NCBI RefSeq assembly: GCF_037975245.1
Contig: NC_092583.1
Coordinates: 899,764-963,763 of the forward strand
Direction: 5' to 3'
From: Apostichopus japonicus
Lineage: Eukaryota > Echinodermata > Holothuroidea > Aspidochirotida > Stichopodidae
DNA: 64,000 bases
Shown: piece after piece, positions 39,603-40,154 of the stretch
Layout of the letters: the number at the start of each line of letters is the position of its first letter
Position numbering within the stretch: the first letter of the stretch is position 1
The notes under the pieces: generated by a model
What the model was told of the DNA's origin: nothing
What the model saw: the letters and a program-made list of their open reading frames with translations, nothing else
The model's database searches: none
Program-made: the position numbers and the translations under genes

Positions 39603-40154
39603 AAGTGTAGCAAGTGGTATTAATTAGTAGTATTATTTATAGTTATTTACTATATATCTGTCATACCACTTGCTACACATTAATTTCTTATTTACGGCTT
39701 GGCTCGCCTATAAAGAGTGGTTATTCTGTGTAAATTGTCAGATTCAAAAGCACAAGGGGTGCATTCTGTACAATCATAACACTTGGGTCATGCGCCCTCA
39801 ATTTCAGTTATACAAAGCCAGTTTATACGCATTCACACACCAGTGAATCACTGTGGTCGAGTGGTACCGACTTCGGTTCGTGACATAAGATCCGGGGGTT
39901 CGCATCCTACCTTCGCCTGATGAGTCCCAAAAGGACGAAACCGGTCGTGAAGTGGAATTTTTCTGGTGTCTTGTTCTTTATTTACTATATATCTGTCATA
40001 CCACTTGCTACACATTCATTTCTCATATATATATATATATATATATATATATATATATATATATATATATATATATATATATATATATATATATATATAT
40101 ATATATATATATATATATATATATATATATATATATATATATATATATATATAT
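39603..40154 (+). mobile_element. Hammerhead-bearing, tRNA-promoter SINE-like retroelement, about 1.2 units
   Basis: A unit of 335 bp is defined by the repeat TTATTTACTATATATCTGTC, CATACCACTTGCTACACATT at 39643 and again at 39978. The complete unit contains a tRNA-like region, with A-box-like GTGGTCGAGTGG (about 39853) and B-box-like GGGTTCGCATCC (about 39896). A full hammerhead ribozyme follows it. The second copy runs into a ~130-bp (TA)n tract (40025-40154). The left edge, GTG...AAGTGG.ATT at about 39603-39622, corresponds to the sequence right after the predicted cleavage site in the second copy. This layout resembles the Sm-alpha elements of schistosomes. There is no ORF, so movement would depend on another element's enzymes. 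Confidence 0.7.
39911..39952 (+). ncRNA. Hammerhead ribozyme (type I), complete core
   Basis: Stem I is formed by CTTCGC (39911-39916) with GTGAAG (39947-39952), six pairs including one G-U. The core box CTGATGA is 39917-39923. Stem II is GTCC/GGAC with loop CAAAA (39924-39936). GAAA follows at 39937-39940. A minimal stem III ACC/GGT (39940-39945) is followed by C39946. The cleavage triplet is therefore GTC and cutting is expected after 39946. Every invariant core position of the hammerhead is present. Outside stem I, TCC/GGA can pair again after an asymmetric internal loop, as natural type I hammerheads need for loop contacts. It should self-cleave RNA made from the + strand. Confidence 0.85.

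Follow-up and report, generated by a model that had tools for sequence, protein, structure and literature searches.

Is the hammerhead-like sequence at positions 39911–39952 of this 64,000-nucleotide stretch of the Apostichopus japonicus genome (the whole stretch is called the window here) a genuine ribozyme, and what kind of element carries it? A sequence-only reading had proposed a complete type I hammerhead lying in a small repeat, akin to those of schistosomes, whose plus-strand transcripts cut themselves after position 39946. In the analysis presented here, the locus is taken, with moderate confidence, to hold a non-LTR retroelement that is non-autonomous, has a unit of about 335 bp and belongs with the metazoan retrozymes or the schistosome Sm-alpha elements; hammerhead retroelements as such are already known.

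The hammerhead motif

On the plus strand, 39911–39952 contains the conserved type I hammerhead core in full, the CUGANGA, GAAA and UH parts of the core being accompanied by stems I and II in an arrangement open at stem I. Every part named in the earlier proposal lies where that proposal had placed it, as can be read in the letters; the outermost parts of stem I are predicted by folding.

39911..39952, plus strand, type I hammerhead ribozyme (Rfam RF00163 and descriptor), predicted cut 39946|39947
39905..39910, plus strand, outer stem I 5′ strand TCC and internal-loop TAC, predicted with pair probabilities of 0.59–0.67
39911–39916, plus strand, stem I 5′ strand CTTCGC
39917–39923, plus strand, core CTGATGA
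39924–39927 / 39933–39936, plus strand, stem II GTCC/GGAC with loop CAAAA
39937–39940, plus strand, core GAAA
39940..39945, plus strand, helix III ACCGGT, one A-U pair and the palindromic tetraloop CCGG (39941–39944)
39944–39946, plus strand, cleavage triplet GTC
39947–39952, plus strand, stem I 3′ strand GTGAAG
39953..39956, plus strand, internal-loop T and outer stem I 3′ strand GGA, predicted fold

All six positions of stem I pair, one of them as G-U, and stem II is fully paired. The covariance-model search that had been suggested as a check bears out both the motif and its assignment to type I, since Rfam Hammerhead_1 (RF00163) scores 38.8 bits against a gathering threshold of 34, with an E value of 2.8e-6, calculated over 4227 Rfam families and the two strands of the 64 kb. 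This is the one RF00163 row among 42 Rfam rows with E up to 10, a list that omits two overlapping rows which scored lower and whose clans are those of listed matches. A strict descriptor, which asks for the core together with a stem II of 4 bp and a stem I of 6 bp, has one match in the window and none in 150 simulated 64-kb sequences, both strands being searched; taken together with the Rfam score, this places the motif far beyond chance. By Rfam and descriptor alike, the window holds a single hammerhead copy.

Stem I is predicted to extend beyond these six pairs. A short TCC/GGA helix lengthens it in the predicted fold across a TAC/T internal loop (probabilities 0.59–0.67), and the predicted TCC strand coincides with the final three bases of the B box described below. 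Natural type I hammerheads are described as having tertiary contacts that join helices I and II (PMC7229834), and a contact of this kind may form in the sea cucumber hammerhead as well.

The single Rfam row also bears on the idea that the hammerhead is a domesticated cis-element cutting the 5′ leader of a fucosyltransferase gene whose start is at 40536. The open reading frame lies on the same strand, with the hammerhead 584 bp upstream. Four long uninterrupted fucosyltransferase frames are found in the window, however, at 27782–29125 (plus), 40536–41819 (plus), 49488–50768 (plus) and 61140–62423 (minus), all of family 10 (Pfam Glyco_transf_10), and as there is no other hammerhead row in the window, none stands beside the other three. 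The hammerhead moreover sits between direct repeats and near an (AT)65 tract, and a role as a cis-element appears extremely unlikely. In a protein search with one of the four frames, one match reached 98% identity, the best named match was from Holothuria leucospilota (57%), and the first Apostichopus japonicus matches stood at 48–50%; on this one protein family, the DNA appears to be that of a sea cucumber.

Helix III and the folding of one or two copies

Within GAAACCGGUC, helix III amounts to one A-U pair with CCGG as its loop. This helix is not stable in the predicted fold of the monomer, where its A-U pair has a probability of about 1.5e-6. The minimum free energy structure of the monomer (-11.2 kcal/mol) pairs the core CUG with CGG at about 0.87 per pair; the hammerhead pairing has -8.6 kcal/mol with helix III left open and -3.1 kcal/mol with its single pair formed. 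The axolotl ribozyme HHR_Amex1 is described with the same weakness, a one-pair stem and a palindromic tetraloop, which is thus not disqualifying for a type I hammerhead; its monomer cuts 6% in one hour, and cutting is much better in dimeric constructs (PMC7229834). A weak helix III and a monomer fold that hides core bases would also suit a dead ribozyme relic without activity, a state compatible with any of the origins considered here. The core letters are intact, however, stems I and II are fully paired and the Rfam score lies above gathering, so a relic is on these grounds unlikely.

To judge from its letters, ACCGGT can pair between two copies as a 6-bp helix. When two copies are cofolded, the unconstrained minimum free energy structure is a double hammerhead of -26.5 kcal/mol, against 2 × -11.2 (-22.4) kcal/mol for two monomers. 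This dimer fold is given by 4 of 256 tetraloops, all of them palindromic (4 of the 16 palindromes) and the native CCGG among them; if the 256 loops are ordered by the energy gained and nothing else, CCGG comes 67th (ties counted). At ordinary concentrations, the roughly 4 kcal/mol gained would not suffice to bring two separate RNAs together, so hammerheads would more probably pair as tandem copies within one RNA. Cleavage is expected to be weak from a lone copy and better from tandem copies. Of the claim that plus-strand transcripts self-cleave after 39946, the cut at 39946|39947 stands as predicted, whereas the case for cleavage of a single transcript is less strong than the proposal implied: its one pair and palindromic loop place helix III in a class described as poor in single copies and better as dimers (PMC7229834), the monomer fold pairs the core CUG away (about 0.87 per pair), and the window contains one ribozyme copy only.

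A palindromic helix III is described for several repeat hammerheads, and those of Aedes and Nematostella, whose helix III could likewise pair between two ribozymes, might need dimers (PMC3088659). Going by description only, the Aedes palindrome is the longer one, with a 10-bp stem as a dimer against 6 bp in the sea cucumber.

The promoter-like head and the direct repeat

The sequence around the ribozyme contains promoter-like boxes, a possible terminator and a direct repeat.

39605–39620 / 39663–39678, plus strand, arms of a perfect 16-bp hairpin at the start of the element, read in letters
39643..39694, plus strand, first copy of the tail, 52-nt match
39854..39864, plus strand, Pol III A box TGGTCGAGTGG
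39897..39907, plus strand, Pol III B box GGTTCGCATCC
39958..39962, plus strand, TTTTT, possible Pol III terminator, read in letters
39978..40029, plus strand, 3′ tail and second copy of the direct repeat, 94% identity over 52 nt to 39643–39694, spacing 335
40025..40154, plus strand, (AT)65 microsatellite adjoining the tail and overlapping its last bases

The consensus of the A box is TRGYNNANNNG and that of the B box is GGTTCGANTCC; the former is matched exactly and the latter with one mismatch. The A box lies 43 nt before the B box and both are found just 5′ of the hammerhead, an arrangement at tRNA spacing that we take to be a mark of the Sm-alpha kind. A scan of the window for A and B boxes returned seven rows at six distinct B boxes, compared with a mean of 0.067 in 60 simulations of 64 kb. 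The five other B boxes sit in tRNA-like or SINE-like heads, and two of these five pass the Rfam tRNA gathering threshold. The Rfam tRNA model (RF00005) gives no row with E up to 10 at the hammerhead-linked head, while it does give rows at three other sites of the window. RNA comprising head and ribozyme is not unusually stable, 111 of 200 shuffles being as stable for 39845–39962 and 59 of 200 for 39841–39965.

The TTTTT run starts at the 12th base past the cut and is the sole run of at least four T in 39836–40024. Head, hammerhead and T run together could make up a Pol III small-RNA gene that is self-contained, with the hammerhead placed between a tRNA-like promoter and a terminator, though we doubt it. 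The transcript would run from about 39840 to 39962, and the ribozyme would remove its last 16 nt, oligo-U tail included. The RNA would then end in a cyclic phosphate fit for tRNA ligase and escape normal 3′ handling, and the palindromic helix III would tie the cut to the meeting of two RNAs, i.e., to dose.

That the hammerhead lies in a small repeat is supported by the Rfam match in conjunction with the direct repeat. Viewed as a repeat of the retrozyme type, the locus has a 335-bp spacing, one ribozyme and a second copy of 52 nt, and the 335-bp unit has a GC content of 43%. The 3′ arm of the hairpin (39663–39678) falls inside the repeated tail, and the fold of 39600–39695 has a z of -6.14, with none of 200 shuffles as stable. 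The similarity of the tails may start as early as 39612, opposite 39950 (the fourth base past the cut); as 118 of 2000 shuffles equal the score, the extension of the repeat to near the cut site is a weak lead. The circular 335-nt unit is not highly self-paired: 61% of it is paired, with a z of 0.16 and 76 of 150 shuffles at least as stable, and a paired fraction above 70% is given for circular RNAs of this type (PMC4918200). A target-site duplication was sought by aligning the sequence after the AT run with that around and before the head; 413 and 545 of 1000 shuffles reached the score, and no such duplication emerged from these alignments, in which the AT run blurs the 3′ end of the element. 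Rfam names returned for the AT run and for the 39605–39678 hairpin were below threshold and are taken as chance. At the 5′ edge, 39494–39602 is part of another SINE-like repeat, also matched at 56848–56963 and partly at 48592–48656.

In a second reading of these data, the element would be an ordinary SINE of tRNA origin, about 180 bp long (39847–40024, followed by an AT tail), that gained a hammerhead between head and body; the upstream tail copy would then be a separate 5′-truncated insertion and 39695–39846 flanking DNA. The circular 335-nt unit, not being unusually structured, suits a SINE, and in four of the six other tRNA-headed elements of the window a simple repeat follows on the 3′ side of the head; the elements at 62952 and 54764 show none in the stretch read. 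The head aligns above shuffles to three of the six other heads (8, 12 and 21 per 1000 shuffles reach the score; 70, 129 and 208 of 1000 for the remaining three). The body does so for one of the six other elements (23 of 1000), but fails in five comparisons (300 to 993); head and body alignments amount to twelve tests, and the counts are uncorrected. A SINE would further need two tail copies in the same orientation 335 bp apart, with no third copy above chance in the 64 kb, and the upstream copy is without an AT tail. On balance, the SINE is possible but not likely.

For the retroelement of the retrozyme or Sm-alpha kind speak the RF00163 score above gathering, the A and B boxes at tRNA-like spacing (0.067 pairs expected per 64 kb), the 335-bp spacing, the 43% GC, the palindromic helix III and the predicted double-hammerhead cofold; schistosome repeats provide the precedent for a tRNA inside a hammerhead repeat. 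Against it stand the lone ribozyme and the absence of a full second unit in the window, a circular unit that at 61% paired is no more stable than shuffles, a head-plus-ribozyme RNA of ordinary stability, the absence of an Rfam tRNA match with E up to 10, the weak extension of the repeat, flank alignments no better than shuffles and the rank of the native loop by energy (67 of 256).

The life cycle of such a retroelement, with its transcription, cleavage, circularisation and mobility, may be pictured as follows. The element would comprise a Pol III promoter resembling that of a tRNA, the type I hammerhead immediately downstream of this promoter, the 3′ tail and a second, partial tail copy. Transcription by Pol III or by read-through would yield an RNA that the hammerhead could cut after 39946. 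Multimeric RNA might thereby be reduced to unit length, best by way of paired hammerheads joined at their ACCGGU palindromes, and a host ligase may circularise the unit-length RNA. A reverse transcriptase acting in trans would finally insert a cDNA longer than one unit, leaving a unit and a partial repeat.

Relation to known elements and genomic surroundings

In anatomy, the sea cucumber element comes closest to the schistosome Sm-alpha elements, and in unit length, GC content and direct repetition to the animal non-LTR retrozymes. Schistosome repeats are described as combining tRNA-derived sequence and a hammerhead in a small repeated element (PMC2770079, PMC4918200). The parallel drawn in the sequence-only reading gains support from the tRNA-like head, because schistosome hammerhead repeats carry tRNA-derived sequence. 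Compared by anatomy, the SINE-like Sm-alpha and Sj-alpha elements share with the locus a tRNA-derived part and a hammerhead. The S. mansoni head, however, derives from tRNA-Gln and its copies number in the thousands (PMC2770079), whereas the sea cucumber head is without an Rfam tRNA match and is linked to one ribozyme copy.

With the metazoan non-LTR retrozymes of coral, mussel and axolotl, as described in PMC7229834, the locus shares a type I ribozyme, a unit of a few hundred bp, low GC and direct repetition; animal hammerhead repeats are given there as 150–450 bp in length, with GC under 45–50%. With axolotl HHR_Amex1 in particular, again as described, it shares a helix III of one pair and a palindromic tetraloop. 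It differs in having A and B boxes, where retrozymes seem to be without promoters (PMC7761336), no full dimer in the window and a predicted circle that is not unusually paired.

A nearly absent helix III is also a feature of the hammerheads of Penelope-like elements, which usually lack this helix according to a review. The tandem structure of Penelope terminal repeats bearing minimal hammerheads would suit the direct repeat at the locus, which might then be a fragment of such an element. In contrast to Penelope hammerheads, however, the sea cucumber hammerhead has a predicted internal loop in stem I and follows a tRNA-like head, a part not found for Penelope elements in the literature passages considered. 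No match to reverse transcriptase or GIY-YIG was obtained among 20 scanned frames, comprising 10 of the 29 stop-to-stop frames of at least 70 aa at 34000–46000 and 10 of the 38 frames of at least 110 aa across the window; four of the frames outside these 20 are the fucosyltransferases. A Penelope origin is very unlikely.

Pattern matches in nine viral contigs were set aside. Read by eye, these hammerheads differ in helix III, which is longer, and show no evident tRNA-like head in their flanks; the pattern that found them asked for four bases at a place where there are three in the window, and so could not match the window itself. A pattern fitted to the window had no match in the viral and none in the bacterial and archaeal collection, as expected for an animal element.

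Searches of an open-access collection, which misses most subscription papers, showed no report of a hammerhead in an echinoderm among the papers listed. The passages of ribozyme papers that name sea urchins or Echinodermata concern HDV-like ribozymes or are a bare mention (PMC8704543 and PMC8256844 among them). Among invertebrate deuterostomes, the tunicate Didemnum vexillum is described with type I hammerheads at 9 loci (PMC8704543). With this retroelement, a sea cucumber would join the animals known to have hammerheads in retroelements. After the schistosomes, it would be another instance in which such an element brings a tRNA-like promoter of its own, a point relevant to the transcription of these elements. 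As retrozymes seem, in the passages of a review, to be without promoters (PMC7761336), a promoter-bearing element outside the schistosomes would be of modest interest to specialists. Its helix III is of the kind for which two ribozymes have to pair; such helices are described in amphibians, and a mosquito and a sea anemone have been proposed to have them too.

Elsewhere in the window, three related tRNA-like heads are found at 21198–21128 (minus), 53931–54002 (plus) and 62952–63018 (plus), two above the Rfam tRNA gathering and one below, and AT-repeat tracts lie close to the first two. A SINE-like element at 48834–48592 (minus) consists of a tRNA-like head, a body and a (CATA)n tail, with partial relatives at 39494–39602 and 56795–56970. 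Pieces of a flavin-containing monooxygenase-like gene (Pfam FMO-like) occur at 11365–11733, 20030–20506 and 21689–22075 on the plus strand. The window further contains a pair of repeats of about 480 bp with 85% identity (18927–19402 and 46980–47448), a minisatellite of 18.5 copies of a 34-bp unit (46221–46848) and a perfect TATG microsatellite of 87.8 copies (48265–48615).
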